A stretch of DNA of 64,000 nt from Herbidospora cretacea. Lineage in GTDB: Bacteria > Actinomycetota > Actinomycetes > Streptosporangiales > Streptosporangiaceae. The notes below the pieces were generated by a model. It searched no databases and was not told the DNA's origin. It saw nothing but the letters and a program-made list of their open reading frames with translations. Shown piece after piece: positions 9,300-42,570 of the stretch. The stretch is from contig NZ_BBXG01000003.1 of NCBI RefSeq assembly GCF_001570605.1, forward strand, positions 459,252 through 523,251. Reading direction: 5' to 3'. The first letter of the stretch is position 1, and every line of letters starts with the position of its first letter. Made by a program: the position numbers and the translations under genes.

Positions 9300-9364
9300 G
9301 CACGTCACCCCGACAGATCCCGGAGGCCTTGATCCACGGCGCGCTTTTTGTCGTCCGGCGGGGC

Positions 9365-9370
9365 TAGGGT
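9365..9370 (+). promoter_or_regulatory. -10 box (TAGGGT) of the SWIM/MoxR/VWA operon
   Basis: TAGGGT, seven bases, then the GTG at 9378. This is the only evident promoter for the five-gene operon and indicates a leaderless mRNA. Confidence 0.55.
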
Positions 9371-9377
9371 GCGGCGC

Positions 9378-12097: not shown

Positions 12098-13179
12098 CGA
12101 CCCCCACCGTGCTGCGGCCCCACGCGGAAGACCAGTACGCCGACGAACTGGCCGTCCTGGCCAAGCACGACGACCGGCCCCGCCCGCCCGGCTGGCGCCT
12201 GTCGCCGTGGGCGGTGACCACGTACATCCTGGGCGACGCCGACCACCCCGGCGGCGTGATCACGCCGAAGTACATCGGGCCGCGCCGCATCGTCGAGGTC
12301 GCCGTCGCCACCCTGGCCACCGACCGGGCGCTGCTGCTGCTCGGCGTGCCCGGCACCGCCAAGACCTGGCTGTCGGAACACCTCGCCGCCGCCGTCTCCG
12401 GCGACTCGACCCTGCTGGTGCAGGGCACCGCCGGGACCGCCGAGGAGGCCGTCCGCTACGGCTGGAACTACGCCCGGCTGCTCGCCGAGGGCCCCTCGCG
12501 GGAGGCGCTGACGCCCAGCCCGGTGATGCGGGCCATGGCCGAGGGGCGGCTGGCCAGGGTCGAGGAGCTGACCCGCATGCCCTCCGACGTGCAAGACGCG
12601 CTGATCACCGTCCTGTCGGAGAAGACGCTGCCGATCCCCGAGCTCAACGAGGAGACCCAGGCGGCCAAGGGCTTCAACGTCATCGCCACCGCCAACGACC
12701 GCGACCGGGGCGTCAACGAGCTGTCGAGCGCGCTGCGCCGCCGCTTCAACACGGTGGTGCTGCCCGTCCCGGCCTCCGCCGAGGAGGAGGTGGAGATCGT
12801 CTCCCGCCGGGTCGCCCAGCTCGGCCGGTCGCTGGAGCTGCCGGAGACCCCGGCGGGCCTGGAGGAGATCCGCCGGGTGGTGACGGTCTTCCGCGAGCTG
12901 CGCTCGGGGGTGACCTCCGACGGCCGAACCAAGGTCAAGACGCCCAGCGGCACCCTCAGCACCGCCGAGGCCATCTCGGTACTGACCAGCGGGATCGCCC
13001 TGGCGGCCCACTTCGGCGACGGGGTGCTGCGGCCCTCCGACGTGGCGGCCGGGATCGTCGGGGCGGTCGTGCAGGACCCGGTGTCCGACCGGGTGATCTG
13101 GCAGGAGTACCTGGAGACGGTCGTCCGCGAACGGGAGGAGTGGCGTGACTTCTACCGCGCGTGCCGCGACGCCGGGTGA
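12094..13179 (+). CDS. MoxR-type AAA+ ATPase, third gene of the AAA+/VWA operon
   Basis: 361 residues. MoxR ATPases are chaperone-like AAA+ proteins that usually work with VWA-domain partners to remodel or activate targets. Walker A is GVPGTAKT (residues 84-91). The helix after the usual Walker B has RMPSDVQDALITVLSEKTLPIPE, and sensor I and the arginine-finger region are visible in FNVIATANDRDRGVNELSSALRRRFN. The Walker B itself reads ARVEELTR where most MoxR proteins have DEINR, so the first acidic residue is Glu instead of Asp. The GTG at 12094 overlaps the upstream stop and is preceded by AAGGAG. It overlaps the next gene by 35 bases. A VWA partner is encoded two genes downstream. Confidence 0.9.
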   Translation: MTTPTVLRPHAEDQYADELAVLAKHDDRPRPPGWRLSPWAVTTYILGDADHPGGVITPKYIGPRRIVEVAVATLATDRALLLLGVPGTAKTWLSEHLAAAVSGDSTLLVQGTAGTAEEAVRYGWNYARLLAEGPSREALTPSPVMRAMAEGRLARVEELTRMPSDVQDALITVLSEKTLPIPELNEETQAAKGFNVIATANDRDRGVNELSSALRRRFNTVVLPVPASAEEEVEIVSRRVAQLGRSLELPETPAGLEEIRRVVTVFRELRSGVTSDGRTKVKTPSGTLSTAEAISVLTSGIALAAHFGDGVLRPSDVAAGIVGAVVQDPVSDRVIWQEYLETVVREREEWRDFYRACRDAG

Positions 13180-15349
13180 CCCGGTGACCGTCACCCTGCT
13201 GGGCGTCCGCCACCACGGCCCCGGTTCCGCCCGCGCCGTGGCGGCCGAGCTCGCCCGCCTCAAGCCCGACATCGTCCTGATCGAGGGCCCGCCCGAGGCC
13301 GACGGCCTGGTCGCCCTGGCCGCCGACCCGGGCATGGAACCCCCGGTGGCGCTGCTGGCCCACGTCCCCGGCGACCCGACGAAGGCGGCGTTCTGGCCGT
13401 TCGCGACCTTCTCCCCGGAATGGCAGGCGCTGAGATACGCGGCCGAGGCCGGCGTCCCGGCCCGCTTCTGCGACCTCCCGGCGGCCCACTCGCTGGCGGA
13501 GAAGGAGCCCGAGCCGGGGGACGACGACCCCACCCCGGCCCAGGTCGTCCGGATCGACCCGATCGCCTCGCTCGCCGCGGCGGCCGGTTACGACGACCCC
13601 GAGCGCTGGTGGGAGGACGCCGTCGAACACCGGGGCGACACCCCCTTCGAGGTGATCGCCGAGGCCATGGCCGCCGTCCGGGAGGGCTACACCCCCGACG
13701 AGAGGGAGGCCCGGCGGGAGGCGTACATGCGCCGGACCGTCCGGGTCGCCGTCAAAGAGGGCTTCGGCAACATCGCTGTCGTGTGCGGGGCGTGGCACGT
13801 CCCGGCGCTGACCACCATCGGACCGGCCGCCGCCGACGACCGGATCCTCAAGGGCCTGCCCAAGGTCAAGGCCGAGATGACCTGGGTCCCGTGGACCCAC
13901 GGCCGGCTCGCCCACTGGAGCGGCTACGGCGCGGGAGTCACCTCCCCGGGCTGGTACGCCCACCTGTTCGCCACCCCCGACCGCCCGGTCGAACGCTGGC
14001 TGACCGACGCGGCCGGAGTGCTCCGCGACGAGGGGATCCCCGTCTCGTCGGCCCACGTCATCGAGTCGGTCCGGCTCGCCCACAGCCTCGCGGTCGTCCG
14101 CGACCGGCCGCTGGCCGGGCTCGCCGAGGTCACCGAGGCCGCGCGGGCCGTCCTGTGCGAGGGCGACGAGCTGCCCGTCGAGCTCATCCAGCGGCGCATG
14201 GTCGTGGGGGAGCGGCTGGGCCACGTGCCCGACTCCACGCCCATGGTCCCGCTCCAGCGGCACCTCCGCGAGGAGCAGCGACGGCTGCGCCTCAAGCCCG
14301 AGGCGCTCGACCGCGAGCTCGAACTCGACCTGCGCAAGCCGCTCGACCTCGACCGCAGCCGCCTGCTCCACCGCCTCCGGCTCCTCGGCGTCCCGTGGGG
14401 CGAACCCCGGCACACCCGGGGGAAGGGCACGTTCAAGGAGGCCTGGGCGCTCCAGTGGCGGCCCGAGTTCGACATCTCGCTCATCGAGGCCGCGCCGCTC
14501 GGGGTGACCGTCCCGGCCGCCGCCGTCGCCCGGATCGCCGAGCTGGCCGCCAAGGAGGGGGCCGCGCTGGCCGACCTCACCGGTCTGGTCGAGCGGGCGC
14601 TGCTCGCCGACCTGCCGGGGTCGCTGCCGTCGGTGCTGGCCGCGATCGGCGACCGGGCGGCCGTCGACACCGACATCCGCCACCTCATGGCGGCGCTGCC
14701 CGCGCTGGTCCGCGCGCAGCGTTACGGCGACGTGCGGGGGACCCCGGCCGAAGGCCTGGCCGTGATCGCCACGTCGCTGCTGGCCCGGATCTGCGCCGGT
14801 CTGTCGGCCGCCGTCTCGGGGCTCGACGACGAGAACGCGCGCGGCATGGTCGTCCACGTCGACGCCGTGACCAGCGCGTCGGCGCTGCTCGACGAGGGGC
14901 GGGAGCGCTGGCTCGCCGCCCTGCGCGCCCTCGCCGACCGCGCCGGCCTGCCCGGGGTGGTCGAGGGCCGGATCGTCCGCATCCTCTTCGACGCCGACCG
15001 GCTCGGCGACGCCGACGCGCGCATGTCGCGGGCCGTGTCGATCGCCCATCCGCCCGCGCGGGCGGCGGCCTGGATCGAGGGGTTCCTGTCCGGCGGCGGG
15101 CTGCTGCTGGTCCACGACCCCCGGCTGCTGGCCATGGTCGACGACTGGCTCATGGGCCTGCGCGGCGACGCGTTCGTCGAGGTCCTGCCCCTGCTGCGGC
15201 GGACCTTCGGCTCCTTCGCGCCGCCGGAGCGCCGATCGATCGCGAGCCGGGTCCGGTCGGGCTCGGCCACCGAGAAGGACATCGACTACGACGACGACCG
15301 CGCCGCCCCGGCCGTGCGGACCGTCATGGGAATCCTGGGGAGCGGCTGA
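13145..15349 (+). CDS. DUF5682-like protein with TraB/TIKI-type motifs, fourth gene of the AAA+/VWA operon
   Basis: 734 residues. The N-terminal domain opens TVTLLGVRHHGPGSARAV, then PDIVLIEGPPEADG (Glu47), and further on has AVVCGAWHVPAL (His218). Paired GxxH motifs with an EGP in the first third resemble the TraB/TIKI/ChaN group of putative metal-dependent hydrolases. I recognise the whole as DUF5682, but enzymatic activity is inference. The C-terminal ~400 residues are helical and Arg/Leu-rich without clear motifs. The GTG at 13145 is well placed after GGGAGGAG despite its 35-base overlap with the ATPase gene. The stop codon overlaps the next ATG by one base. Candidate effector of the operon. 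Confidence 0.78.
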   Translation: MTSTARAATPGDPVTVTLLGVRHHGPGSARAVAAELARLKPDIVLIEGPPEADGLVALAADPGMEPPVALLAHVPGDPTKAAFWPFATFSPEWQALRYAAEAGVPARFCDLPAAHSLAEKEPEPGDDDPTPAQVVRIDPIASLAAAAGYDDPERWWEDAVEHRGDTPFEVIAEAMAAVREGYTPDEREARREAYMRRTVRVAVKEGFGNIAVVCGAWHVPALTTIGPAAADDRILKGLPKVKAEMTWVPWTHGRLAHWSGYGAGVTSPGWYAHLFATPDRPVERWLTDAAGVLRDEGIPVSSAHVIESVRLAHSLAVVRDRPLAGLAEVTEAARAVLCEGDELPVELIQRRMVVGERLGHVPDSTPMVPLQRHLREEQRRLRLKPEALDRELELDLRKPLDLDRSRLLHRLRLLGVPWGEPRHTRGKGTFKEAWALQWRPEFDISLIEAAPLGVTVPAAAVARIAELAAKEGAALADLTGLVERALLADLPGSLPSVLAAIGDRAAVDTDIRHLMAALPALVRAQRYGDVRGTPAEGLAVIATSLLARICAGLSAAVSGLDDENARGMVVHVDAVTSASALLDEGRERWLAALRALADRAGLPGVVEGRIVRILFDADRLGDADARMSRAVSIAHPPARAAAWIEGFLSGGGLLLVHDPRLLAMVDDWLMGLRGDAFVEVLPLLRRTFGSFAPPERRSIASRVRSGSATEKDIDYDDDRAAPAVRTVMGILGSG

Positions 15350-16515
15350 TGGACACGCACGACGACGAGCGGGCCCGCCGCTGGCGGCTGGTCCTCGGCG
15401 GGGCGGCCGAACAGGCCCCCGGCGGCCTCGGCGGCCTGTCGGGGTCCGACGCCGGCATGGACGCCGCCCTGGCCGCCCTCTACGACCTCGACGGCGACGG
15501 CGGCGAGTCGTCGCCCCGCTCGGCCGGGCTGGGCGGGTCGGCGCCCAGGGTGTCCCGCTGGCTGGGCGACATCCGGACCTATTTCCCCTCGACGGTCGTC
15601 CAGGTCATGCAGAAGGACGCCATCGACCGCCTCGACCTCAGCCGTCTCCTCCTGGAGCCGGAGATGCTCGAGGCGGTGGAGCCCGACGTCCACCTCGTCG
15701 GCACCCTCCTGTCGCTCAACCGGGTGATGCCCGAGAAGGCCAGGGAGTCGGCCCGGGTGGTGGTGCGGAAGGTCGTCCACGAGCTGGAACGCAAGCTCCA
15801 GCACCGCACCCGCGCGGCGGTGACCGGCGCGCTCAACCGGGCGGCCCGGACCAACCGCCCCCGGCGTCCGGCCGACATCGACTGGAACCGGACCATCCGC
15901 GCCAACCTGAAGAACTACCTCCCCGACCGCAACACGGTCGTGCCGTCGCGGCTGGTCGGCTACGCCCGCAAGCAGCAGTCGGTCCAGCGCGAGGTCGTGC
16001 TGTGCATCGACCAGAGCGGCTCGATGGCGGCGTCGGTGGTCTACTCGAGCGTGTTCGGCGCGGTGCTGGCCTCGATGCGCTCGCTGAAGACGTCCTTGGT
16101 CGTCTTCGACACGGCCGTGGTCGACCTGACCGACCAGCTCCACGACCCGGTCGAGCTCCTCTTCGGCACCCAGCTCGGCGGCGGCACCGACATCAACCGC
16201 GCCATCGCCTACTCCCAGGGCCTCATCACCCGCCCGGCCAACTCGATCTTCATCCTGATCAGCGACCTCTACGAGGGCGGCGTCCGCGCCGAGATGCTCA
16301 GGCGGGTCGCCGCGATGACGGCCGCCGGGGTCCAGGTGATCGTCCTGCTGGCCCTGTCCGACGAGGGCGCGCCCTTCTACGACCACGACAACGCCGCGGC
16401 CCTGGCCGCCATGGGCGTCCCCGCCTTCGCCTGCACGCCCGACGCCTTCCCCGACCTGATGGCCGCCGCCATCGAACGCCGCGACATCACGGCCTGGGCC
16501 GAACGCAACGCTTGA
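15349..16515 (+). CDS. VWA-domain protein, fifth gene of the AAA+/VWA operon
   Basis: 388 residues. The N-terminal ~200 residues are helical and carry a Gly-rich start. The VWA domain begins at EVVLCIDQSGSMAAS, a perfect MIDAS metal-binding motif (Asp221-x-Ser223-x-Ser225), with the further MIDAS threonine in GGGTDINRAI and aspartate in ILISDLYEGG. VWA proteins bind partner proteins through a metal ion and commonly pair with MoxR ATPases. ATG at 15349 shares one base with the upstream stop (ATGA-type coupling). This is the last gene of the operon; the next gene has its own promoter-like box. Confidence 0.9.
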   Translation: MDTHDDERARRWRLVLGGAAEQAPGGLGGLSGSDAGMDAALAALYDLDGDGGESSPRSAGLGGSAPRVSRWLGDIRTYFPSTVVQVMQKDAIDRLDLSRLLLEPEMLEAVEPDVHLVGTLLSLNRVMPEKARESARVVVRKVVHELERKLQHRTRAAVTGALNRAARTNRPRRPADIDWNRTIRANLKNYLPDRNTVVPSRLVGYARKQQSVQREVVLCIDQSGSMAASVVYSSVFGAVLASMRSLKTSLVVFDTAVVDLTDQLHDPVELLFGTQLGGGTDINRAIAYSQGLITRPANSIFILISDLYEGGVRAEMLRRVAAMTAAGVQVIVLLALSDEGAPFYDHDNAAALAAMGVPAFACTPDAFPDLMAAAIERRDITAWAERNA

Positions 16516-16580
16516 CGATTCGGCCGAAGGTCTCATGTCCTCTGGGGCCAGGGCCCGATGCCCGGTACGCTTCCCATCCG

Positions 16581-16586
16581 TAATGT
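16581..16586 (+). promoter_or_regulatory. -10 box (TAATGT) of leaderless MFS gene
   Basis: TAATGT, seven bases, then ATG at 16594. This spacing matches the other leaderless starts in the window and supports 16594 over 16558 or 16606. Confidence 0.45.
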
Positions 16587-16593
16587 CCGAATC

Positions 16594-17940
16594 ATGGTTT
16601 CTCTCATGACATCCACGTCACCGCCACCGGCCGTCTTCTCGGCCCGTTACCGGGCCCTGAGCACCGGCATCACCGCGCTCATCGTGCTGGTCGCGTTCGA
16701 GTACCTGGCGGTCGCGACCGCCATGCCCGAGATCGGCGAGGAGCTGCGCGGCTGGGGCCTCTACAGCCTCGCCTTCAGCGGCCCCGTCGCCGCCGCGCTC
16801 GTCGGCACGGTCGCCGGCGGCCGCTGGGGTGACGTCTCCGGCCCCGACAAGCCGCTCTGGACGGGCCTGGCCGCGTTCGTCGCCGGTCTGGTCGTCGCCG
16901 GTCTGGCCCCCACGATGGAGATCTTCATCGCCGGCCGCCTGATCCAGGGGCTGGGCGGCGGGATGTTCAACGTCGCCATCTACGTGCTGGTCGCGCGGGT
17001 CTACCCGGGCGCCATGCACCCGAAGGTCTTCTCGCTGCTGGCCGCCGCCTGGGTGCTGCCCTCGGTGGTCGGCCCGGCCATCACCGGCACGGTCACCGAG
17101 GCGTGGACCTGGCGGGCCGTCTTCCTGGGCGTCGCGGTGCTCGCGATCCCGGCCGCGGTGATCTTCTGGCGGGGGCTGGCCTCCCGGGAGCCCCACCAGC
17201 ACGAAGAGGAGAAGACGGACACCGGACCGTTCGCCGCGCGGCTCGCCTGGGGCGGGGCCGCGGCGGTGGGCGCGGCGGTGCTCCAATACGGCTCCGACGA
17301 CCGGAACTACCCGCTGATGGCGGCCGGCCTGATCGTGCTGATGGTCGCGCTGCCGATGCTGGTCCCGGCCGGGACGCTGCGGGCGGCCCGGGGGCTGCCG
17401 ACCGTCGTCGCGCTGCGCGGGCTGAGCATGGGCGCGTTCTTCGCCGCCGAGGTGCTGGTGCCGCTCATGCTCGTCAAGGAGCGCGGCCTGTCGCTGACCG
17501 AGGCGGGCATCGCGCTGACCGGCGGGGCGCTGGCCTGGTCGGCCGGGTCGTGGCTGCAGGGCAAGTACCCGGGCGGCCGGCTGCTGCGGCTGTGGGGCGG
17601 CCACCTGCTGGTCGCCGCCGGGATCTCGGTGACCGCGCTCGCCTTCCTGCCCGCCGTCCCGATCTGGGTGGCGTTCATCGGCTGGGTGGTCTGCGGGCTC
17701 GGCATCGGGATGATCTACCCGACGCTGTCCGTGCTGGTCCTGGAGCTGTCCCGGCCCGGTGAGGAGGGCAAGAACAGCGCCTCGCTCAGTGTCGGCGAGT
17801 CGGGGATGACCGTGGTCGCGGTGGCCGTCACGGGGGCCGTGCTGACCGCGACGGGAGCCTATGCCGTCTGCTTCGCCCTGCTCGTGGTGATGGCGCTGGC
17901 GGGGGCGCTGCTGTCCCGGCGTGTCACCATGGAACTCTGA
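16594..17940 (+). CDS. MFS transporter (drug exporter-like)
   Basis: A 448-residue inner-membrane protein with about 12 hydrophobic segments separated by short loops. ITALIVLVAFEYLAVATAMPEI is TM1 with the loop motif seen in multidrug efflux members, GGRWGDVSGPDKPLW is the loop between TM2 and TM3 (motif A-like), and GLGGGMFNVAIYVLVARVYP resembles the TM4 region. A charged loop (REPHQHEEEKTDTG) separates the halves. Such proteins export small molecules using proton motive force; the substrate is unknown. The nearest downstream gene starts 18 bases later and may be co-transcribed. Confidence 0.88.
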   Translation: MVSLMTSTSPPPAVFSARYRALSTGITALIVLVAFEYLAVATAMPEIGEELRGWGLYSLAFSGPVAAALVGTVAGGRWGDVSGPDKPLWTGLAAFVAGLVVAGLAPTMEIFIAGRLIQGLGGGMFNVAIYVLVARVYPGAMHPKVFSLLAAAWVLPSVVGPAITGTVTEAWTWRAVFLGVAVLAIPAAVIFWRGLASREPHQHEEEKTDTGPFAARLAWGGAAAVGAAVLQYGSDDRNYPLMAAGLIVLMVALPMLVPAGTLRAARGLPTVVALRGLSMGAFFAAEVLVPLMLVKERGLSLTEAGIALTGGALAWSAGSWLQGKYPGGRLLRLWGGHLLVAAGISVTALAFLPAVPIWVAFIGWVVCGLGIGMIYPTLSVLVLELSRPGEEGKNSASLSVGESGMTVVAVAVTGAVLTATGAYAVCFALLVVMALAGALLSRRVTMEL

Positions 17941-23153: not shown

Positions 23154-24242
23154 ATGCGGCTGCTGCACACGTCTGACTGGCACCTGGGCCGGTCGTTCCA
23201 CCGCGAAAGCCTCCTTTCGGCCCAGGCGGCGTTCGCCGACCATCTGGTCGAGACGGTCAGGGCGGAGCGGGTCGACGCCGTGCTCGTGGCCGGTGACGTC
23301 TACGACAGGGCCCTGCCGCCGGTCGACGCCGTCGCCCTGTTCGACGACACCCTACGGCGGTTACGGGGCCTCGGGGCGCACACCGTGATCATCAGCGGCA
23401 ACCACGACTCCCCGGTCCGCCTCGGCTTCGGCGCCGGCCTGATGGACCGCATCCACCTCCGCACCGACCCCCACCAGGCCTGGGTCCCCGTCGTCGTGAA
23501 CGACGTCGCCTTCTATGGGATTCCCTACCTGGAGCCCGAGCTCGTCCGCACCCCGTGGGGCCTCCCGGAGCGCACCCACACGGCCGCCATGACCCACGTC
23601 ATGGATCGCGTACGGTCCGACGCCGCCCCAGCGAAGGTGGTGCTGGCCCACGCGTTCGTCACCGGGGGCGCGGCCAGCGACAGCGAGCGCGACATCAGGG
23701 TCGGCGGGGTCGCCCACGTGCCGCTGCGCGTCTTCGACGGGGTCTCCTACACCGCCCTCGGCCACCTCCACGGCCGCCAGACGATGAGCGAGACGGTCCG
23801 CTACTCGGGCTCCCCGATCGCCTACTCCTTCTCCGAGGCCGATCACCTCAAGGGGTCGTGGCTGGTCGAGCTGGGCGGCGCGGTGGAGTTCGTGCCCGCG
23901 CCGGTGCCCCGCCCGCTCACCCGCCTGCGGGGCCGCCTCGACGACCTGCTCGCCCTGCCGCCCCTCGGCGACTGGATCCAGGCGACCCTGACCGACCCCG
24001 TCCGGCCGAAGGCCGCCATGGAGCGGCTGCGGGCCCGGTTCCCCCACACCGTCGACCTCCACTTCGCCCCCGACGAGGCGGCCGAGGCCGCGCCCGCGCG
24101 CCCCCGGCTGGCCGGGCGGCCCGAGATCGACGTGGCGCTCGACTTCGTCCGGGAGGTCCGCGGCGAGCCCGCCGACCCCGACGAGCGGCGCCTCCTCGAA
24201 GAGGCCGCCATGGCCTGCCGCATCAGGGAGACGATGGCCTGA
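23154..24242 (+). CDS. sbcD: Exonuclease SbcD (Mre11-like subunit)
   Basis: Nuclease subunit of SbcCD, which opens hairpins and trims DNA ends during replication and repair. The 362-residue length and metal-phosphatase motifs match the family: HTSDWHLGRSF (Asp8, His10), LVAGDVYDRA, ISGNHDSP, then VLAHAFV and LGHLHGRQ. The C-terminal ~110 residues form the capping region that contacts SbcC. ATG at 23154 has a TTAGCT box nine bases before it. The stop overlaps the ATG of sbcC by one base, so the two subunits are translationally coupled. Confidence 0.95.
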   Translation: MRLLHTSDWHLGRSFHRESLLSAQAAFADHLVETVRAERVDAVLVAGDVYDRALPPVDAVALFDDTLRRLRGLGAHTVIISGNHDSPVRLGFGAGLMDRIHLRTDPHQAWVPVVVNDVAFYGIPYLEPELVRTPWGLPERTHTAAMTHVMDRVRSDAAPAKVVLAHAFVTGGAASDSERDIRVGGVAHVPLRVFDGVSYTALGHLHGRQTMSETVRYSGSPIAYSFSEADHLKGSWLVELGGAVEFVPAPVPRPLTRLRGRLDDLLALPPLGDWIQATLTDPVRPKAAMERLRARFPHTVDLHFAPDEAAEAAPARPRLAGRPEIDVALDFVREVRGEPADPDERRLLEEAAMACRIRETMA

Positions 24243-27200
24243 TGCGCCTCCACCGGCTGACGATCTCGGCCTTCGGCTCCTTCCCCGGCACGGAGGAGGT
24301 CGACTTCGACCGGCTCGGCGAGGCCGGGCTGTTCCTCATCCACGGGCCGACCGGCGCGGGCAAGACGACCATCCTCGACGCCGTCTGCTGCGCCCTGTTC
24401 GGCGTCGTGCCCGGCCAGCGCAACGACGCGCGGTCCCTGCGCTGCGACCACGCGCCGCCGGGCGTCGGCCCGCAGGTCGTGGTGGAGACGACCATCCGGG
24501 GGCGGCTGCTGCGGGTCACCCGCTCGCCCGCGTGGTCCCGGCCGAAGCTCCGGGGCGAGGGCACCCGCCAGGAACAGGCGAAGGTGATCGTCCAGGAGTT
24601 CAAGGGCGGCGACTGGGCGTCGGTGACGACCCGCCTCGACGAGGCCGGCGACTTCATCGGCGGGCTGCTCGGCATGAACGCCGACCAGTTCGGCCAGGTG
24701 GTGATGCTGCCGCAGGGCGACTTCGCGAAGTTCCTGAAGGCCCACGGCGACGACCGCCGCAAGCTGCTGGAGCGCCTGTTCACCGTGCGGGTCTTCACCG
24801 ACATGGAGAAATGGCTGGCCGACCAGCGCCGCGAGACCGGCCGGGTCGCCGAGCAGACGGCCGAGGAGGTCCGCGCCCGCGCCGACCGCATGCGCGGCGC
24901 GGCAGGACCGGACCTGCTGTCCCAGGTGGCCGACTCCGACGACCCCGTCGAGTGGTCGTCGGCCCTGCTCGCCGCCGCCTCGGCCGCCGTCGCCTCGGCC
25001 GAGGCGGCCGTCTCCGACGAGGCCCTGCGCATCGCCCGCGACCAGCTGACCGAGGCCCGCGACCTGGCCGACCGGCAGCGCCGCCACACCGCCGCCCGAG
25101 TCCGCCGCGACGAGCTGGAGGCCCGCGCCGAGGAACGCGCCGACCTGGAGGTGATCCTCGCCGAGGCGGCCTCGGCCGCCCGCGTGGTCCCCCTGCTCGA
25201 CCAGCTCTCCGCGCGCGACCGGACCGCCGCCACCGCGTCGGCCGCCTTCGACGCGGGCACGGCGGGCCTGACCGAGACCGACCACCGCCGGGCCGAACGG
25301 GCCCGCCACGACGAACTGATCCGCCTGGAGGAGGCGCTCGGCGACGAGGCCCGCCTCCAGGGCGTGATCCGCGAACAGGACCATCTGAACGACGAGATCG
25401 TCACCCTGGAGAAGCGCCTCCAGAGCATGGCCGACCGTTTGGAGGCCGCCACCGCCGAACTCTCGGAGGCCGAGGAGCAGCGCGCCGCCGCCACCGTCGC
25501 CGAAGCCGCCCTCCCCGGAGCCGAGGCCTTCCGCGACCGCGCGGCGGGCCTGCTGGAGGCGGTCCGCCACCGCGACGCCACCCGGGCCGCATTGGCCGAG
25601 GCGACGGCGGTCCGGGCGGCGGCCGGTCATCCGGGCCTGGCGGGGTCCGAGCTCACCGCCCTCGAACGCCACCGGCGCGACGAACTCGCCCGCCTCGACG
25701 CGCTCGACTCCGAAGAGGCCCGCCTGTCCGCCCTGCGGGCCGGCCGTGAGGCCGCCGAGACCGAGGCCGCCCGCCTGGCCGGGGTCGAGGCCGAGCTGGC
25801 CGACCGCCTGACCACCCTGCCCGGCCTCCTGGCCGAGGCCGCCGCCCGCCTGGCCACCTGCCGCGAACAGGCGGCGGCCCTCCCGGCGGCCCGATCCCGC
25901 CTGCTGGCGGCGGAGGAACGCCTGAGCGCGGTGATCCGCCGCGACGAACTCGCCGCCGACCTGGCCACGGCCGAAGACGCCCGCCGTGCGGCGGTCGACG
26001 CCGCCCAGGCCGCCGTCGACCGCCTCCACGAGATCCGCCAGGCCAGAATCGACGGCATGGCCGCCGAACTGGCCCTGCGCCTGTCCGAGGGCGACCCGTG
26101 CGCGGTCTGCGGCTCTCCCGACCACCCGGCCCCGGCCGAGCCCCGGTCCGAGATGGCCACCGCCGACGACGAGGAGGCGGCCCAGTCCGAGGCCGACGCC
26201 ACCCAGGCGGCACGGGAAGACGCCGAGGCGGCCGTCGTCCACCTGGGCAACCAGCACGAACGCGCCGCCGACGCCTCCGACGGCCTCTCCCCGGCCGAGG
26301 CCGAACAGGCCCGCGAGGAGGCGGAGGCCGACCTGACCGCCTTGGAGTCGGCCGCCGCCCGTGAGCCCGGCCACCGCGAGGAGGTCACCCGCCTGGAAGC
26401 GGCCTTGGCCGAGGTCCGCGAACGGGCCGCCGACACCGCCCTCGCGCTCCGCGACCTCCAGACGAGGGAGGAAAACTCTCGCGCCGAGGAAGACCGCCTC
26501 ACGGTCCGCCTGTCCGCCGCCCTGGACCCGGGCGAGACGGTCGCCTCCCGCCGCACCCGCCTCACCGAGGAGGCCACCGCGATCAGCGCGGCCCTGACAG
26601 CGGCCGTCGAGACCACCGCCCTGTCCGACCGCCTGGCCGAAGCCATCCGCCAAGTTACGAGAGCGACAAGAGGCACCCCTCTGGCGCAAGGACCTCAATC
26701 CTCTGAGGCCATGCGAGAGGTCACGGATGCGACGCCCAGCACCGGCGGAGCGCCTTCCGCCGGCCATGTCTCCGGCGCGACGACCGTCGGCCCTGCGGAT
26801 GTGGGCTCCTCGGGCGGGGGCGACGATCAGGCGCATTTGGGTTCTCTGCGCGATGGTCCTGCCGAGACCGGTCTTGCGGGCGACTCCCTGACCGAGACCG
26901 GCGTGCGTTCCTTGAGCGCGGGTTCAACGAGGGTTGGGGCAGCCGCTGACCTCAAGGTGAGTGCTCTCATCGATGACCCGGCGGGCTGGGATCCTGCGGT
27001 CCGGCCTGACGTCCCCGCGGCGGAGGGTCTCCTGGCCGAGGCCGAGCGAGTGGTCGAGGAACTGGCCGCGACCGTCGGTCGCCGGTTCGCCGCGCAGCAG
27101 ACCGCTGAGCGCCTGATCGAGGAAGTCAGGAACCTCCGGTCCCAGGAGACCGGCGACACCAACCTGCTCATGGAGACCAGGGCCGCCCGAGGACGGTTCG

Positions 27201-28264
27201 CTCATGAGGAGCACGAGCTCAGGGGCCGTCTCGACCGGCTGCGCGGCGACGACGCCTCCCTCCACGACCGGGTCACCCGGCTGCGGGCCGAGACCGAGGC
27301 CTACCGGCACGCCGCCGAGGTCTCCGAAGCCCTCGCCGAGGCGAAGAGGGAACTGGCCGCCGCCAGGGACACCGCGCTGGCCGCCGCCGTCGACGCCGGT
27401 TTCACCGGGCTCGACGACGTGGCCGCCGCCCGGCGGACCCCGGCCGAGATCGACGAGATGGGCCGCCGCCTGCGCGAACTGGGCGACGAGCTGGCCGCCG
27501 TGGTCCGCACCCTCGCCGACCCCGAGCTGATGGCCGCCGCCGCGCGGCCGGCACCGGATCTCCCCGCCCTCCAGCAGGCCCACGACGAGGCCGACGCCGC
27601 CCGATCGGCCCAGGTCTCCACCCGTGACCGTGCCGTCGCCCGGCTGGCCCAGCTCCGGTCCCTGGCCGACGAGCTCACCCGGGCCCAGGAACGCCGCGCC
27701 CCCGCCGACCGCCGCCACCGGCTGGCCCGCCGCATGGCCGAACTCGCCAACGGGACCTCCTCGGACAACCAGTGGGACATGCCCCTGTCCTCCTATGTCC
27801 TCGGCGAACGCCTCCGCCAGGTCGCCGACGCCGCCAACGAACGCCTCACCCACATGTCGGGCGGCCGCTACCTGCTCCAATACGACGTCAGGAAGACAGC
27901 CGGCCACCGCAGCCGATCGGGCGGCGGCCTGGGGCTGCGCGTCCTCGACGCCTGGACCGGCATCGACCGCGACCCGGCCACCCTGTCGGGCGGCGAGAGC
28001 TTCATCACCTCCCTGGCGCTGGCCCTCGGGCTGGCCGACGTGGTCGCGGCGGAGGCGGGCGGCGCCGAGATCGGCACCCTCTTCGTCGACGAGGGCTTCG
28101 GCACCCTCGACGAGGACACCCTCGACGACGTCCTCGACATTCTCGACTCGCTGCGCGAGGGCGGCCGGGCGGTCGGCGTCGTCAGCCACGTGGCGGAACT
28201 CCGGGTCCGCATCCCGGCCCAGCTCCGCGTCCACAAGGGCCGGGCCGGCTCCACGTTGCGGTGA
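24242..28264 (+). CDS. sbcC: Exonuclease SbcC (Rad50-like SMC ATPase) with an atypical insertion
   Basis: ATPase subunit of SbcCD, 1340 residues, longer than most. Walker A is GPTGAGKTT (35-43), Q-loop MLPQGDFAKFL is near 156, the zinc hook is CAVC (Cys620/Cys623), the ABC signature is LSGGES (1248-1253) and Walker B is LFVDEGFGTLDE near 1282. The rest is coiled coil rich in Ala/Glu/Arg. At about residues 803-916 (nucleotides ~26650-26990) the coiled-coil pattern stops and a Gly/Ser/Thr/Pro-rich stretch with visibly lower GC and different codon use is inserted in frame. ATG at 24242 overlaps the sbcD stop. A frameshifted copy of the last ~40 codons lies just downstream. Confidence 0.93.
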   Translation: MRLHRLTISAFGSFPGTEEVDFDRLGEAGLFLIHGPTGAGKTTILDAVCCALFGVVPGQRNDARSLRCDHAPPGVGPQVVVETTIRGRLLRVTRSPAWSRPKLRGEGTRQEQAKVIVQEFKGGDWASVTTRLDEAGDFIGGLLGMNADQFGQVVMLPQGDFAKFLKAHGDDRRKLLERLFTVRVFTDMEKWLADQRRETGRVAEQTAEEVRARADRMRGAAGPDLLSQVADSDDPVEWSSALLAAASAAVASAEAAVSDEALRIARDQLTEARDLADRQRRHTAARVRRDELEARAEERADLEVILAEAASAARVVPLLDQLSARDRTAATASAAFDAGTAGLTETDHRRAERARHDELIRLEEALGDEARLQGVIREQDHLNDEIVTLEKRLQSMADRLEAATAELSEAEEQRAAATVAEAALPGAEAFRDRAAGLLEAVRHRDATRAALAEATAVRAAAGHPGLAGSELTALERHRRDELARLDALDSEEARLSALRAGREAAETEAARLAGVEAELADRLTTLPGLLAEAAARLATCREQAAALPAARSRLLAAEERLSAVIRRDELAADLATAEDARRAAVDAAQAAVDRLHEIRQARIDGMAAELALRLSEGDPCAVCGSPDHPAPAEPRSEMATADDEEAAQSEADATQAAREDAEAAVVHLGNQHERAADASDGLSPAEAEQAREEAEADLTALESAAAREPGHREEVTRLEAALAEVRERAADTALALRDLQTREENSRAEEDRLTVRLSAALDPGETVASRRTRLTEEATAISAALTAAVETTALSDRLAEAIRQVTRATRGTPLAQGPQSSEAMREVTDATPSTGGAPSAGHVSGATTVGPADVGSSGGGDDQAHLGSLRDGPAETGLAGDSLTETGVRSLSAGSTRVGAAADLKVSALIDDPAGWDPAVRPDVPAAEGLLAEAERVVEELAATVGRRFAAQQTAERLIEEVRNLRSQETGDTNLLMETRAARGRFAHEEHELRGRLDRLRGDDASLHDRVTRLRAETEAYRHAAEVSEALAEAKRELAAARDTALAAAVDAGFTGLDDVAAARRTPAEIDEMGRRLRELGDELAAVVRTLADPELMAAAARPAPDLPALQQAHDEADAARSAQVSTRDRAVARLAQLRSLADELTRAQERRAPADRRHRLARRMAELANGTSSDNQWDMPLSSYVLGERLRQVADAANERLTHMSGGRYLLQYDVRKTAGHRSRSGGGLGLRVLDAWTGIDRDPATLSGGESFITSLALALGLADVVAAEAGGAEIGTLFVDEGFGTLDEDTLDDVLDILDSLREGGRAVGVVSHVAELRVRIPAQLRVHKGRAGSTLR

Positions 28265-37187: not shown

Positions 37188-38375
37188 GTGCTTCCCGAGA
37201 CGCTCGACTCGGCGCTGTCCGACGAGGCGGTGCTGGTCACCTACCGCAGGATGTTCGCCGCGCTGGCCCGCGACAGCGGCGCCGTCATCGACGACCCCGC
37301 GCTGGTCGACATCGCCGAGACCCTGTTCGCGGCGTTCGCCGAGGCGGGCGAGGAGTGGCTGACCCACGAGCAGATGCGCCACGCGTGCCGCGCCCACCCC
37401 GTCGAGCTGTTCGAGAACCGGCTCCGGGTGCTGCGCGGCCTGGGCGCGATCCGCGAGGTCTTCCCGAAGCCCAACCAGCTCCGCTACCGGGCGTCGTTCA
37501 CCTCGGTGGTCGGCCTGATGTTCATCCGGCGGATGATGGACGACGGCGGCCAGAGCGAGATGCACCGCCTGCTGGAGCTGGAGGACCTGACCGTCGCCGG
37601 GCCGCGCACGACGATGGAGCAGGCCCGCCGCTCGGCCGACATGCTCGCCCGCGCCTTCCGCCTGTGGGCCCTCGAACTCGTGACCCTGACCACCGGCACC
37701 ATCGAGGAGCTGCGCGAACAGGCCCCCAAGCTGTGGGGGACCGAGGAGATCGCCCGCCGCGCCCAGAGCCTCCACACCACGATCCTGACCCGCTGGCCCG
37801 ACCTCGACCGGGTCTGCACCGACCTGCGCTCGGCCATCTACGCCTACAGCGACGCCTCCCGCCGCGCCGCCGGCCGTCTGGCCGACTCGGCCGGCACGAC
37901 CCGCAACCTCACCCTGCTGCCCGCCGAGACCTGGCGCACCTTCGCCCAGACGGCCTCCCGCGAACGCCTCGCCGACGTGCTGGAGGGTTTCGTCTTCGAC
38001 GCCGCCGCGCCGTGGCACGACCCGGGGGCGATCGTCCGCGCGGTCGACGAGGCCCCGCGCCCGGCCCCGGTCCGCCCCGCGCCGCCCCGATCGTCGCTGC
38101 CGGATGAGGGGGCGTCCTCGTCCCTGGCGGCCGGCCCTCCCGGGCGGTTCGCCGAGGTGGCGGAGGCGTTGCTGGGGGAGCGCGACGCCGTGGCGCTGGA
38201 AGAGGTGCTCACCGGCGACTGGTCGACGATCCGCCGCGTGCTGGCCGACCTCGCCTCGGCCGACCTGCATCCGGAGGCGCCCTACCGGCTGGCGTGGTCC
38301 GACACGCTGACGGCCGATCCGGCCGGGCGGCCGAGCTGGCTGTCCCACGGCCGCTTGGAGCGGACCGATGGGTGA
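37188..38375 (+). CDS. Candidate kleisin-like (MukF/JetA-like) subunit of an SMC module
   Basis: 395 residues, not recognised by itself. An N-terminal helical region (VTYRRMFAALARDSG... DIAETLFAAFAEAGEEWLTHEQMRHAC) is followed by a winged-helix-like segment (FENRLRVLRGLGAIREVFPKPNQLRYRASFTSVVGL). Next come long helices rich in Arg/Ala/Leu/Glu, a Pro-rich linker (about residues 285-315) and a small C-terminal helical domain. Terminal helical domains joined by long helices and a flexible linker fit a kleisin that bridges SMC heads, and its place as first gene before a winged-helix protein and an SMC ATPase matches MksF/JetA. This is inference from context. The start is chosen by TACGGT seven bases before GTG; ATG at 37158 is an alternative. 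It overlaps the next gene by four bases (GTGA). Confidence 0.62.
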   Translation: MLPETLDSALSDEAVLVTYRRMFAALARDSGAVIDDPALVDIAETLFAAFAEAGEEWLTHEQMRHACRAHPVELFENRLRVLRGLGAIREVFPKPNQLRYRASFTSVVGLMFIRRMMDDGGQSEMHRLLELEDLTVAGPRTTMEQARRSADMLARAFRLWALELVTLTTGTIEELREQAPKLWGTEEIARRAQSLHTTILTRWPDLDRVCTDLRSAIYAYSDASRRAAGRLADSAGTTRNLTLLPAETWRTFAQTASRERLADVLEGFVFDAAAPWHDPGAIVRAVDEAPRPAPVRPAPPRSSLPDEGASSSLAAGPPGRFAEVAEALLGERDAVALEEVLTGDWSTIRRVLADLASADLHPEAPYRLAWSDTLTADPAGRPSWLSHGRLERTDG

Positions 38376-39574
38376 CGGATCGCCGGTGGCCGGTCGGCCG
38401 GGGGAGGGCCTGGTTCGTGGGTGAGCTTCATGCCGAGGCGCGGTCGTCCGGGCTGGTGCCGCTGGCCGGGACCGTCCCCCCGGGTTTCGTCCGGGTCGGG
38501 GGCGTCGGGGTGCCCGTCTGGCCCGACGGGGCCTCGCCCTCGCTGCTGGAGGAGTACCAGATCGCCGGTGCGCCGGTGGAGCGGGCGGGGGAGACCCGCC
38601 GCGTGCTGGCCTGCTGCCTGCGCATGTGCTGGGCCGATCTCGACGCCGAGCCGTGGCCGGGCGTGGTGGCGGCGGTCGACGACGTGCTCGCCTGCTACCG
38701 CACGATGGTCGGCCGGACCGACGACTCGGTGCGGAGCTGGGCCGTCGGCGCGCTGCGGCGGCTCCACGACACCGGCTGGATCGTGCTCGTCGGAGACGGG
38801 ACCCTGCGCCTCGGCCCGCGCTGCGTGCTCTGGACGGCCGACGGCCACGCCCAGCTGCGCGAGCTGATGCGGCGCATCGCCGCGCCCGCGGGTGAGACCA
38901 CACCGGTCGTCGCGTCGCGCGACGAGGGCGCCGAGGAGTTCGGCGACCTGCTGGGGGCGTTCGACGAGCGGCGGCGGGCCGAGCTCGTGGCGGCCTTCGT
39001 CGCGGTCGAGACGGCGGCCGAGCCGGTCCACGAGGCGCGGTTCGCGGCGCTGCGCGACCCGGCGCTGCGGCGGGCGCTCATGGAAATGCTGGCCCGGCGC
39101 GGCCGGGTGCTGCTCCAGCGCGCCGACTCGTGGATCTCCGGCTACACCGACGCCTACCGGGCGACCTCGCTGCCGGAGGCCGAGCGGGCCGTGCTGGCGC
39201 TCGTGCTGGTCCACACGGTGGCGATCCCCCGGGCCGAGGGACTGCTGGGCGAGGACACCTGGCTGTCGCCCCACCCGGTCGCGACCGAGGAGCTGCGGCG
39301 GCGGACCCTGCTGCCCATCGGCGAGCTGGAGGCCGCGCTGCGGGCGCTGCGCCAGGCGGGCCTGATCGCCCAGCAGAAGACCAGTGAGGAAGGCGCGGGC
39401 GGCTACGTGCCGGGACCGCAGTTCCACCGGCTGACCCGGGCGGCCCGCGCCCGGCTCCAGGAGGAGCTCATCCTGGCGGCCGGGCCGCAGACACCGCTGG
39501 CGGTCGCCATCAGGGACAGACGCCGCCGCCACGAACCGGCGGGCACGGAAGAGACGGAAAGGGCACGGGGATGA
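38372..39574 (+). CDS. Candidate KITE-like (MukE/JetB-like) winged-helix subunit of an SMC module
   Basis: 400 residues, not recognised alone. Winged-helix-like segments appear twice: SVRSWAVGALRRLHDTGWIVLVGDGTLRLGP (about residues 120-150) and, near the C-terminus, TEELRRRTLLPIGELEAALRALRQAGLIAQQKTSEEGAGGYVPGPQF. The second ends in a beta-hairpin and is followed by a basic tail. Such tandem winged-helix proteins (KITE) bind kleisins in MukBEF/MksBEF/Wadjet complexes. It is longer than typical MukE/JetB (~200-250 residues). The GTG at 38372 overlaps the upstream stop, and its end overlaps the SMC start by four bases (ATGA). Assignment depends mainly on operon position. Confidence 0.6.
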   Translation: MTDRRWPVGRGRAWFVGELHAEARSSGLVPLAGTVPPGFVRVGGVGVPVWPDGASPSLLEEYQIAGAPVERAGETRRVLACCLRMCWADLDAEPWPGVVAAVDDVLACYRTMVGRTDDSVRSWAVGALRRLHDTGWIVLVGDGTLRLGPRCVLWTADGHAQLRELMRRIAAPAGETTPVVASRDEGAEEFGDLLGAFDERRRAELVAAFVAVETAAEPVHEARFAALRDPALRRALMEMLARRGRVLLQRADSWISGYTDAYRATSLPEAERAVLALVLVHTVAIPRAEGLLGEDTWLSPHPVATEELRRRTLLPIGELEAALRALRQAGLIAQQKTSEEGAGGYVPGPQFHRLTRAARARLQEELILAAGPQTPLAVAIRDRRRRHEPAGTEETERARG

Positions 39575-42570
39575 CCGAGGTCGTCGATCTGAGTGGAAAC
39601 AAGCCGGGGGAGCCGGGGGCCTCCGGGTTGTTCCAGGTCGTCGTGCCGATCGACGACGTGCGGCCGGTGCGGGCGCCACAGGACAACATCGTCGGCGACC
39701 GGGTGCTGGTCGCGTTCCAGCCGGTCAACATCTCGCGGTTGTCGACCCACACCGTCCCGATCGTGCCGGGCACACTAGTCGTCGTCGCGGGCGCCGGGCC
39801 GAAGGACTCCAACGGGGCCGGGAAGTCGTCGTTCATCGCCGCGATCACGGCGCTGCTCGGCGACGAGCAGTGGCGGTTCGCCTCGGGCGCGAAGGCCGTC
39901 TCCGAGCTCCTGTTCAACGCCGAACTGGCCGCCCACGGCGACCAGCAGTGGGCCAGCGCCGGCCACGGCTACATCGTCGGGGTCTTCGACGTGCCGTCGG
40001 CCGGGGTGCCGGTGACCGTGTGGGTGCGGGTCAACCAGGAGGCCCCGCATCTGGAGGTGCGGTGGGCCGAGGGCGTCCACCTGGCCGGCGCCGCCTCCGA
40101 GGCCGAGCGGGTCACCCACGCCGACGTCATCTGGTCGAGCCTGCCCAGGAGCGCCGGGCGGCGCGACGTCGTGGCCCGCGACCTGACCCGGGTCCTCTAC
40201 GGCGACCGCGTCCGGTGCGTGTCGTTCCTCTCCACCTCCGTACGCAGCAAGGTCGCCACCAACCTCCTCTCCCAGCCCCTCAACGAGATCTCGCCCGACC
40301 GCATCTTCGAGGCCATCGCCGCGCTGACCGGCCTCGACGCCGAGCTCGACCAGGAGCGCGAGGCCCGCCGCGACGAACACGCCAAGCGGGTCCGCGCCGA
40401 CGAAGCCCGCCGCCGCCTGGCCGAGTTCGAAGACGAGTCCCGCCACCTGCTGGCCACCTTCGACCGCCGCGACCGCTCCCGCGAACGCCTCGCCGACGCA
40501 TTGAAACACTGGCGCGGGAGGCTGGCCCGCCGGGCCGTCGACGCCGCCGCGTCCGACACCGTGCTGACCGCCCAGCGGGCGGAGTTCGACGCCGCCGCCG
40601 ACACCACAGAGAGCGCGATCGCCGAGGTCAGAGCCGAGATCGCGGCCCTGCGCGACGACTCGCTCGACCGCGCGCTGGCCGCCGCCCGCAGGGAACTGGC
40701 CGCCGCCCAGGCGAGCGCCGCCCGCGTCGAGGCCGAACGCGCGGTCGCCCAGAACACCGCCGACCAGCTCCGCGCCCAGATCCCCGCCCTGGAGGAGCAG
40801 CGCCGCCGCGCCGACGGCCGCGACCCCGGCCAGGCCCGCGCCGAACTCGCGGAGGCCCGGAAGGTCCACGCCGAGGCGCTCAAGGCCCTCGGCGTCGCCG
40901 ACCGCGAACACGAGACCGCCCAGGCGGCCCTCCGCGACGCCGAGAACGGCCCGGCGGCCGTCCAGCTCACCGCGCTGGGCCTGGCCGGCGTCCAGGCGAC
41001 CGGCCTGCTCGACGCCCTCGACGCCGCCGAACAGGCCCGCGACAGCGTGGGCCTGCCCGACCCGGCCGCGCCCGCCGCGGCCGAAGGAGCGGGTGCCGCG
41101 CGGGACGCGGTCGTCGTCGACGCCGCCGACCTGGAAGCCGCGGCGAAAGCGCTGGCCTCGCTGCCCGGTTCCGTGCTGGTCTCGTCGTCGGGCGTGACCG
41201 TCGTGGGCCAGGCCGAGGCCCAGGTCACCGGGCGCGACGCCCGGGTCAAGGCGGCCCACAAAAGGGTGGAGCGGGCCGAGGAGGCCCAGGCGAGCGCCGC
41301 CGCCGCCGTCAGGAGGGCGGAAGACGGCGTCACCGGGGCCGAACGCCGGGTCGAGGGCGCCGAGGCCGCCGGCCGCCTGGCCGAACTGGCCACCCGGCTG
41401 ACCGCCCAGCGCGACCGCCTCACCGAGCTGGCCGCCGCCGCCGGGGAGCTCACCCCCGCCCTCGACGCCGCCGAGGAGCAGGTGGCCGCGCTCGACTTCC
41501 GCGCCCGCACCCGCGACGTCGAGGCCGACCGCCTGGAGGCCCGCCGCCACGCCCTGACCGCCCGCCGCGACGAGGCCCGCGCGGGGGCCGCCCGCATCGA
41601 GGCCCAGCGGCTCGCCCTCGAGCTCGAGACCCTGGTCAAGGAGTGGGGCGGCACGATCGAGGGCGCCCGCGAGTGGCTCGCCGACAACGAGCTGACCGCC
41701 GACGAGTGGTGGCGCGCCGCCGAACGCCACCTCGACGCCGCCCTCCGCGGCACCTTCGACGACGGTGAAGACCAGCCCGAGGAGCTCGCCTACCTCGTCG
41801 CGGCCCGCAAGGACGGCCGCGCCGCCGAGGAACTGGCCACCTTCCAGGCGGTCTGCAACGCCCTCGGCTCCTACCTGCGCGCCCAGGAGGAGTACGAACG
41901 CCACCAGCGCCGCCAGATCGAGACCCAGATCACCACCCGCCACCGCGACCTCGCCGCCGCCACGAGAGGCGCGGAGGAGGCCGCCCAGTCGACGGCCGTC
42001 CACCGCGCGACCCTCACCGAGGCCATCCGCGCCCGCCTGACCCGCGTCTCCGAGGAGTTCGACCGCCTCGACACCGGCTACGGCGGCTACGGCGCCTCCC
42101 TCGACTTCCCCGTCCCCGCCGCCCCGGCCGACCCGGAGCAGCGCTGGTCGTGGCGGGTCGTCCCGAAGTGGAAACGCGGCGAGGGCCAGGGCTACGTCCC
42201 CTACAACCGCCGGGCCAACACGGCGCTGATGGACGAGAAGGCGGTCAAACTGGTCTGCGCGGCGGCCATCGCGTCGAGCGGCGGCAAGCACCTGACGCTG
42301 GTCCTCGACGAACTCGGCCGCAACCTGGGCAAGGAGCACCGCCGCGAGGCCGTGGCCCTGTTCCGCCGCATCGGCGAGACCTACGGCATCACCGTGATCG
42401 GCGCCCTCCAGGACGACATGGAGCCCTACGCCATCGACGCCTGCGGCCAATACGTGAAGCTCAGAAGGTCCTCCGACGCGATGGCCTACAACGAGCCGCC
42501 CGTCATCATCGCCCACGACAAGCACGCCGACCGGGTCAGAATGCTCTCCGACCACGTGATCCGCGCCTGA
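39571..42570 (+). CDS. SMC-like ATPase (MksB/JetC-like)
   Basis: 999 residues with a split ABC-type head. Walker A is GPKDSNGAGKSS (residues ~76-87), followed by FIAAITALLGDEQWRF. Long Ala/Arg/Glu coiled-coil arms run from about 245 to 480 and from 560 to 860. They are separated by a small non-coiled hinge-like domain with VVVDAADLEAAAKALASLPG and VLVSSSGVTVVG. The C-terminal head has the signature-like ASSGGKHL (Ser902-Gly905, where LSGG is usual) and Walker B LTLVLDELGRNLG (Asp913-Glu914), then HRREAVALFRRIGETYGITVIGALQDDM. Length and features fit the MukB/MksB/JetC class more than canonical SMC (~1200 residues). ATG at 39571 overlaps the upstream stop. The following gene is an unrelated SDR on the other strand. 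Confidence 0.85.
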   Translation: MTEVVDLSGNKPGEPGASGLFQVVVPIDDVRPVRAPQDNIVGDRVLVAFQPVNISRLSTHTVPIVPGTLVVVAGAGPKDSNGAGKSSFIAAITALLGDEQWRFASGAKAVSELLFNAELAAHGDQQWASAGHGYIVGVFDVPSAGVPVTVWVRVNQEAPHLEVRWAEGVHLAGAASEAERVTHADVIWSSLPRSAGRRDVVARDLTRVLYGDRVRCVSFLSTSVRSKVATNLLSQPLNEISPDRIFEAIAALTGLDAELDQEREARRDEHAKRVRADEARRRLAEFEDESRHLLATFDRRDRSRERLADALKHWRGRLARRAVDAAASDTVLTAQRAEFDAAADTTESAIAEVRAEIAALRDDSLDRALAAARRELAAAQASAARVEAERAVAQNTADQLRAQIPALEEQRRRADGRDPGQARAELAEARKVHAEALKALGVADREHETAQAALRDAENGPAAVQLTALGLAGVQATGLLDALDAAEQARDSVGLPDPAAPAAAEGAGAARDAVVVDAADLEAAAKALASLPGSVLVSSSGVTVVGQAEAQVTGRDARVKAAHKRVERAEEAQASAAAAVRRAEDGVTGAERRVEGAEAAGRLAELATRLTAQRDRLTELAAAAGELTPALDAAEEQVAALDFRARTRDVEADRLEARRHALTARRDEARAGAARIEAQRLALELETLVKEWGGTIEGAREWLADNELTADEWWRAAERHLDAALRGTFDDGEDQPEELAYLVAARKDGRAAEELATFQAVCNALGSYLRAQEEYERHQRRQIETQITTRHRDLAAATRGAEEAAQSTAVHRATLTEAIRARLTRVSEEFDRLDTGYGGYGASLDFPVPAAPADPEQRWSWRVVPKWKRGEGQGYVPYNRRANTALMDEKAVKLVCAAAIASSGGKHLTLVLDELGRNLGKEHRREAVALFRRIGETYGITVIGALQDDMEPYAIDACGQYVKLRRSSDAMAYNEPPVIIAHDKHADRVRMLSDHVIRA

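Follow-up and report, generated by a model that had tools for sequence, protein, structure and literature searches.

A probable KITE-type SMC complex with a fused KITE pair and no adjacent nuclease gene in Herbidospora cretacea

The window analysed here is a stretch of 64 kb from the 8.28-Mb genome (36 contigs) of Herbidospora cretacea, and it carries a module of three genes on the forward strand, which we call A, B and C. Gene A (37188-38375) has a GTG start and encodes a kleisin-like protein of 395 aa, which an alternative ATG start at 37158 would extend to 405 aa. Gene B (38372-39574) encodes a KITE-like protein of double length (400 aa), in which two parts, B1 and B2, are fused, and gene C (39571-42570) encodes an SMC-type ATPase of 999 aa. 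The overlaps between A and B and between B and C are 4 bases each (GTGA, ATGA), so that the locus has the order kleisin, KITE, SMC and the translational coupling that are typical of Wadjet. An earlier note on this DNA had described three co-directional genes with such overlaps, the last one encoding 999 residues, and all of this was confirmed. Upstream of the module lies a divergent AlkZ-like gene, and downstream a convergent gene for a short-chain dehydrogenase.

The protein encoded by C shows the layout of an SMC ATPase, as the earlier note had proposed. The Walker A motif, GPKDSNGAGKSS (39796-39831, forward strand; residues 76-87), is invariant in 20 C sequences. The Walker B motif, LTLVLDE (42292-42312, forward strand; residues 908-914), is likewise invariant as LxLDEL (residues 910-915) in an alignment of 20 C sequences that includes the one from the window, the invariant residues being L910, L912, D913 and E914. 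Between the two coiled-coil arms lies a short, conserved, hinge-like stretch that does not form coiled coil (40933-41241, forward strand; residues about 455-557). This stretch contains no cysteine in the protein from the window, and a CxxC zinc hook is therefore absent. The hinges of Wadjet-II, Wadjet-III and MukBEF are described as channel-less (PMC12647877).

The ABC signature of C is non-canonical. The earlier note, mostly right in its observations, was wrong in taking the sequence SSGG (42274-42285, forward strand; residues 902-905) as the signature, which is ruled out by its spacing to the Walker B aspartate. SSGG occupies positions D-11 to D-8, while a motif of the LSGGE type precedes this aspartate by 28 residues in Smc, 35 in SbcC, 34-35 in JetC-II and 41 in MukB. 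Of the 90 C sequences compared, 77 carry SSGG at these positions, but the most distant one lacks it and has APDP there. The signature position is instead occupied by NTALMDEKA (42217-42243, forward strand; residues 883-891), and across the family by N-T-A-x-M/I-D-E-K, 29 residues before the aspartate in 86 of the 90 sequences; the distant relative has NSAREK at this place. A weak profile alignment of C with Smc (E 0.006, probability 6%) puts the signature in the same register.

Profile comparisons of the two halves of the head place C at some distance from the known families. The N-terminal part reached probabilities of 29% with Smc, 23% with JetC-II and 31% with MukB, and the C-terminal part 6%, 3% and 1%, respectively. 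For most pairs, these values are below those that the known families gave among themselves: 84% and 95% for JetC-II with Smc, 67% and 95% for JetC-II with MukB, and 88% and 51% for Smc with MukB. As judged by these profiles, C has an outlying head of the SMC type.

For A, no match was found to any model of Pfam, NCBIfam or PADLOC at E-values up to 1. Its AlphaFold2 model, built from 32 aligned sequences (mean pLDDT 65.8, pTM 0.39), consists of an N-terminal winged helix, long helices in the middle and a C-terminal winged helix, and thus has the winged helix at both ends that marks the kleisin fold, although the confidence of this assignment is modest (best match at E 2e-4). When the model was compared with the PDB by Foldseek, the first rank was taken by chain 9gm7_C of MukBEF (E 2.0e-4, 440 residues, 461 alignment columns), on which the global superposition is poor (TM 0.28, rmsd 38). 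The second rank was the MukBEF entry 7nz2, the third an unrelated methyltransferase, and the fourth chain 3euh_B of a MukE-MukF complex. As the search output names entries only, we infer from their length and entry that the matched chains are MukF.

The AlphaFold2 model of B, built from 48 sequences (pLDDT 78.1, pTM 0.45), shows one clear winged helix in B1 and two in B2. The first three ranks of the Foldseek search were ScpB or ScpA-ScpB chains (6juv_B at E 9.2e-4, 6juv_A and 4i98_B), and the fourth was a chain of the Wadjet-II JetABC complex (9qe0_D, E 9.9e-3), whose subunit is unnamed in the output; many single winged-helix proteins followed at lower ranks. The match to ScpB is modest (E 9e-4, TM 0.20), and the tandem winged helices that characterize KITE proteins are clearest in B2. 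Sequence models gave DprA_WH in Pfam (E 0.011, below the cut-off) and Csa3 in PADLOC (E 0.0015). The winged-helix segments that had been predicted for the first two proteins are thus present in both models, and neither fold is unrelated to its proposed counterpart, with MukBEF and MukEF matching A and ScpB matching B. On the basis of these Foldseek matches, we take A to be probably a kleisin and B to be probably a KITE protein, each with modest confidence.

The earlier note had remarked that the KITE-like protein is twice the usual length. This length is real, and is explained by the fusion of two genes. Residues 1-172 (38372-38887, forward strand) align with separate B1 proteins and residues 187-400 (38930-39571, forward strand) with separate B2 proteins, while the linker between them (38888-38929, forward strand; residues 173-186) was modelled with low confidence and is variable and of low complexity in relatives. 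B is split into two genes in Actinomadura, Thermomonospora, Bailinhaonella, family f21 and the distant locus L176, and these genes encode about 170-200 aa (B1) and about 210-245 aa (B2). In all 16 loci for which four genes were called, the end of B1 and the start of B2 share 4 bases. Among 79 named loci, B is fused in 51, was called as two separate genes in 17, and is represented by a called B2 only in the remaining 11; B1 was recovered by tblastn in 7 of these 11, and the other 4 end near a contig edge. Among these seven, L172 has B1, a long Thr/Ala/Pro-rich linker and B2 in one reading frame, and L103 is broken by masked bases.

On a tree of C (FastTree, 90 rows, with the C gene picked by best BLAST match), a single change between the fused and the split state suffices, at a branch support of 100. 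The tree was scored for 52 fused and 32 split rows, leaving L103, L108, L136, L145, L153 and L172 unscored (6 of 90), and its rooting depends on one long branch, that of the outgroup. As B is split in the distant relative that serves as outgroup, the fused form is the derived state. Judged by these alignments and this tree, B is a fusion of B1 and B2 that arose in one event.

Relatives of C were detected in 17 of 60 near genomes, all of them among the 37 from the family of the host (0/23 elsewhere). Within the class, A was found in 31 of 394 genomes, with strong matches in 14 genomes of the host's family and 14 of family f21, one remnant and two weak matches. The module is absent from about half of the sample of the host's family, and is thus dispensable. 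In Actinomycetota the module is widespread: a scan of GTDB yielded 254 confirmed stretches, of which 79 loci were kept, from Herbidospora, Nonomuraea, Streptosporangium, Microtetraspora, Planobispora, Actinomadura and other genera; the closest C protein is that of Herbidospora mongoliensis (93% identity over 952 columns). No relatives of the module were found in the viral contigs scanned or in phage records, and plasmid records gave one match, NZ_LT559118.1 of Nonomuraea. This 11.85-Mb record is filed as a plasmid and carries the module, and looks like a chromosome.

Homologues of C that occur without A and B would have spoken against a complex, and none were found: A, B1, B2 and C were all detected by tblastn in 37 of 37 fetched loci. 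Forty loci had been fetched, of which L067 and L068 (weak matches, no module) and L094 (a remnant of A only) were dropped, and the loci L237, L236 and L224, discussed below, are outside these counts. The remnant in L094 (G056:C65, 6062-6556 in the contig; family f19) is a short piece of gene A, with the rest of the module absent. Among the named loci, gene calls and BLASTP found A in 71 of 79 and B2, alone or fused, in 79 of 79; in the 8 loci without A, C starts 675-2028 bp from a contig edge. The dN/dS ratios for four pairs of Herbidospora genomes were 0.05-0.09 for A, 0.11-0.15 for B and 0.16-0.20 for C, and by this measure all three genes are under purifying selection. The presence of relatives of the whole module in many genomes, together with dN/dS values of 0.05-0.20, indicates that the module is more than a chance arrangement.

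The available family models hardly recognize these proteins, as no Pfam or NCBIfam model reached its cut-off on A, B or C. The NCBIfam model for Smc (TIGR02168, SMC_prok_B) gave 24.2 bits on C against a cut-off of 567.35, and the Pfam model SMC_N stayed below its cut-off. In PADLOC, C matched mad3 (4.6e-5), LmuB (0.0021), mad8 (0.022), SspC (0.056), JetC2 (0.089) and JetC3 (0.3). A sequence search of the PDB with C alone returned one designed protein (E 0.03), and profile searches of the PDB with C, A and B returned coiled-coil or unrelated chains only, a fragment of SMC3 (E 0.59) among them. Profile comparisons linked A to neither JetA-II nor MukF and B to neither JetB-II nor MukE, with probabilities of 0.06% for A with MukF, 0.18% for B with MukE and 17.6% for C with MukB, although the control comparison of JetA-II with MukF was equally blind (0.48%). 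As far as we searched, the module is undescribed in the open-access literature. A 2020 classification of ABC ATPases could include the family. These results fit a separate lineage of KITE-type SMC complexes that is recognized by none of the scanned libraries.

The failure of every SMC model to reach its cut-off on C would also suit a different reading, in which C is a Rad50/RecF-like ATPase that merely lies beside two DNA-binding regulators. The obligate co-occurrence of the genes, their 4-base overlaps, the kleisin and KITE fold matches and the JetD-like partner found in relatives (see below) all argue against this, as does the hinge stretch without a CxxC zinc hook, and we regard it as highly improbable. 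An SMC complex remains the preferred assignment.

The surroundings of the module are conserved within lineages. All 6 Herbidospora loci that were fetched share the same flanks. Family f21 has its own arrangement, in which each of its 14 loci is followed by cluster c5 or c6. When ten neighbours were scanned with PADLOC at 1e-5, one gave a match, to an ABC-transporter ATPase. The module thus looks like a resident chromosomal system rather than a passenger of a defence island. Elsewhere in the window, five contiguous genes (9405-16515, forward strand) encode a SWIM zinc finger protein, a DUF5691 protein, a MoxR-like AAA_5 ATPase, a DUF5682 protein and a VWA_CoxE protein. By their domains, these form a module of the MoxR-VWA type.

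About 9 kb upstream of the module, the window contains sbcD and sbcC (23154-28264, forward strand). SbcC or SbcD is also encoded close to the module in 28 of the 54 named loci whose flanks are complete, and in 35 of all 79. Such frequent proximity could point to a repair role of the A-B-C complex in cooperation with SbcCD. However, simple shared ancestry can also account for it, as 24 of the 28 loci belong to the fused-B clade, which provides 42 of the full-flank loci. In family f21, no SbcCD was seen in the vicinity of the module. We consider a joint repair function very unlikely.

Wadjet and MksBEFG carry a nuclease of the JetD kind (PMC10586767, PMC10123090), and the earlier note had observed that such a subunit is missing here. 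No JetD-like frame was found in any of 116 module loci, using an HMM made from six JetD-II sequences and phmmer with the D protein of the distant locus L176 (E 0.01, frames of at least 50 residues), a scan that is blind to strongly diverged nucleases, since the HMM missed the D protein of L176 and the D query missed ordinary JetD-II. In control searches, JetD was recovered with the HMM from 12 of 15 Wadjet-II loci, including the six from which the model had been built, while phmmer with the D protein returned its own locus L176, L237 and the L224 remnant. The genome of the window contains neither JetD_C nor DUF2399, the two domain families of this nuclease that we counted, and TIGR02680 is absent from it as well. 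The absence of a recognizable nuclease at this locus is real, and probably reflects a loss.

A nuclease could also be encoded elsewhere, or be borrowed from another system, in which case the module would be a living Wadjet-like plasmid defence. Genes with JetD_C were found in 3 and with DUF2399 in 14 of 37 module-bearing genomes, either family in 16 and neither in 21, a count that covers 37 of the 41 such genomes and would probably rise with the other four (G009, G095, G115 and G173), as all of these carry a TIGR02680 SMC. Both the 16 genomes and these four would favour an unlinked nuclease, and the SbcCD genes in the flanks of 28 full-flank loci could supply a borrowed one. On the other hand, the 21 genomes with neither family include that of the window, and no match to either family lies within 170 kb of the module except in one genome of another class of the phylum (G564); the nearest one outside it is a 43-residue match about 177 kb away (G183). 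The conserved, chromosomal contexts, with a PADLOC match in one of ten neighbours, to the transporter ATPase, likewise speak against active defence of this kind. We therefore judge an unlinked or borrowed nuclease to be unlikely, and prefer a complex that has none.

In G564, a DUF2399 match directly follows C. This locus, L176, has the order A, B1, B2, C, D, with 35% identity to the window in C and 29% in A, and its D gene (651-2033, reverse strand) matches DUF2399 at 36.0 bits (cut-off 23.4) and the PADLOC model JetD1 at E 1.7e-6. Among 66 genomes of the class of G564, A was found in two more: L237 (G554) holds a truncated A and pieces of B2, C and D in that order, and is a decayed module, while L236 (G593) has A followed by the end of the contig. 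A further trace comes from the class of the window, in locus L224 (G162, family f19), where a DUF2399 match of 26.8 bits (cut-off 23.4) continues, without a change of frame, from the last 87 residues of a decayed C (48% identity); a search of 35 genomes of family f19 gave no intact module. The same locus also contains a Wadjet-II operon with a JetD of its own (5086-13613), about 3 kb from the remnant (16343-17161). A survey of neighbours for TOPRIM genes, as the earlier note had suggested, thus points to a JetD-like gene after C in the distant L176, and to none in the 116 module loci.

The order C, then D is accordingly known from one intact and two decayed loci of two classes, and an ancestral arrangement A-B1-B2-C-D that lost D is the simplest reading of it. 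Only one of the D-linked modules known is intact, so that the ancestry of D depends on this locus and the two decayed ones. The opposite polarity would require an independent SMC family that was never associated with a nuclease, with a JetD-like gene gained by the lineage of L176 and L237 and by the ancestor of L224. The single intact D-linked locus and the rooting of the C tree on one long outgroup branch leave room for such a gain. However, the order recurs in three loci of two classes, two of them already decayed, and the related Wadjet and MksBEFG systems carry the same kind of nuclease (PMC10586767, PMC10123090). We find a gain of D quite doubtful, and consider its loss from the lineage of the window to be probable.

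The module can be compared with several known systems. Like Wadjet (JetABCD, types I-III, also known as EptABCD and MksBEFG, the latter described with its nuclease in PMC10123090), it has translationally coupled genes in the order kleisin, KITE, SMC, and its distant member L176 has a JetD-like DUF2399 TOPRIM gene after C. JetB of Wadjet-II is also of double length, at 380-480 aa. The two halves of JetB-II (L218-L232) resemble each other (hhalign probability 74%, E 2.9e-5, from a comparison made without a shuffle control), which suggests an internally duplicated KITE. In contrast to Wadjet, A and B are matched by none of the JetA and JetB models, the JetC models match C weakly and over the coiled coil, JetD is absent at the locus, B consists of two genes in its split form, and C has a non-canonical signature and is, at about 1000 aa, shorter than JetC-II, which has about 1360-1400 aa. 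As protein models and nuclease both fail at this locus, we do not class the module as Wadjet.

MksBEF of Pseudomonas also lacks JetD, and reportedly acts on DNA without cutting; the module differs from it by its fused or paired B1-B2 KITE. The order F, E, B of MukBEF of Escherichia coli corresponds to A, B, C, and the best PDB matches of A are MukBEF and MukEF, whereas the KITE protein MukE has 234 aa in E. coli against the 400 aa of B, and our host also has a canonical Smc. Likeness to Smc-ScpAB is seen in the top PDB matches of B and in a weak alignment of C with Smc around Walker B, but the module is a separate operon, and a canonical Smc is encoded in the same genome (887 bits, summed over pieces that share a frame, against a cut-off of 567.35). 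KITE complexes include the dimeric MukE and the Nse1/Nse3 pair (PMC10512200). If B1 and B2 are both KITEs, the module might parallel Smc5/6 in having two different KITE chains. Profile comparison does not support paralogy of B1 and B2, with an hhalign score of 15.6 against a mean of 13.2 and a maximum of 21.4 in 40 column-shuffles. SbcCD and Rad50 differ from the module in that C lacks a zinc hook and has A and B as operon partners, while SbcCD is encoded separately in the same window.

The earlier proposal of a divergent MksBEF/JetABC-like complex is thus supported by gene order, coupling, fold matches, obligate co-occurrence and the JetD-like gene after C in distant relatives. Taken together, the module is probably a KITE-type SMC complex that is related to Wadjet in design and probably in descent, has no nuclease here, and has its KITE pair fused. 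Two C subunits would be joined at the small hinge, with the kleisin A bridging their ATPase heads and the B1-B2 pair, a single chain in the window, seated on A. Binding and hydrolysis of ATP by the heads would then drive the entrapment of DNA and the extrusion of loops. The module would descend from, or share an ancestor with, a five-gene Wadjet-like system A-B1-B2-C-D, with a TOPRIM nuclease of the JetD type encoded by D. The lineage leading to the window would have lost D, and B1 and B2 would have fused thereafter. The present complex would be a non-cutting one, and its most likely role would lie in chromosome organization or in the silencing of foreign circles, much as reported for MksBEF of Pseudomonas. 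We hold this account, a nuclease-less Wadjet-like lineage with a non-cutting role on DNA, to be slightly favoured on balance. A more specific version is put forward tentatively, in which an unnamed KITE-type lineage of Actinomycetota descended from a five-gene system for plasmid restriction that had two different KITE chains. After loss of the nuclease it would have been domesticated as a condensin, either chromosomal or plasmid-silencing, beside canonical Smc, and its KITE chains would have fused only after that.

If true, these findings would extend the known SMC complexes by a lineage that has no name in current family libraries, in actinomycetes known for large genomes and the production of antibiotics. 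They would also provide a dated, comparative case of an SMC motor that shifts between plasmid defence with a nuclease and a non-cutting role. The natural fusion of B1 and B2 predicts the stoichiometry of the KITE subunits, with one B1 and one B2 per motor. With split and fused relatives and a distant relative that bears the nuclease, the function of the nuclease-less motor would be directly testable.
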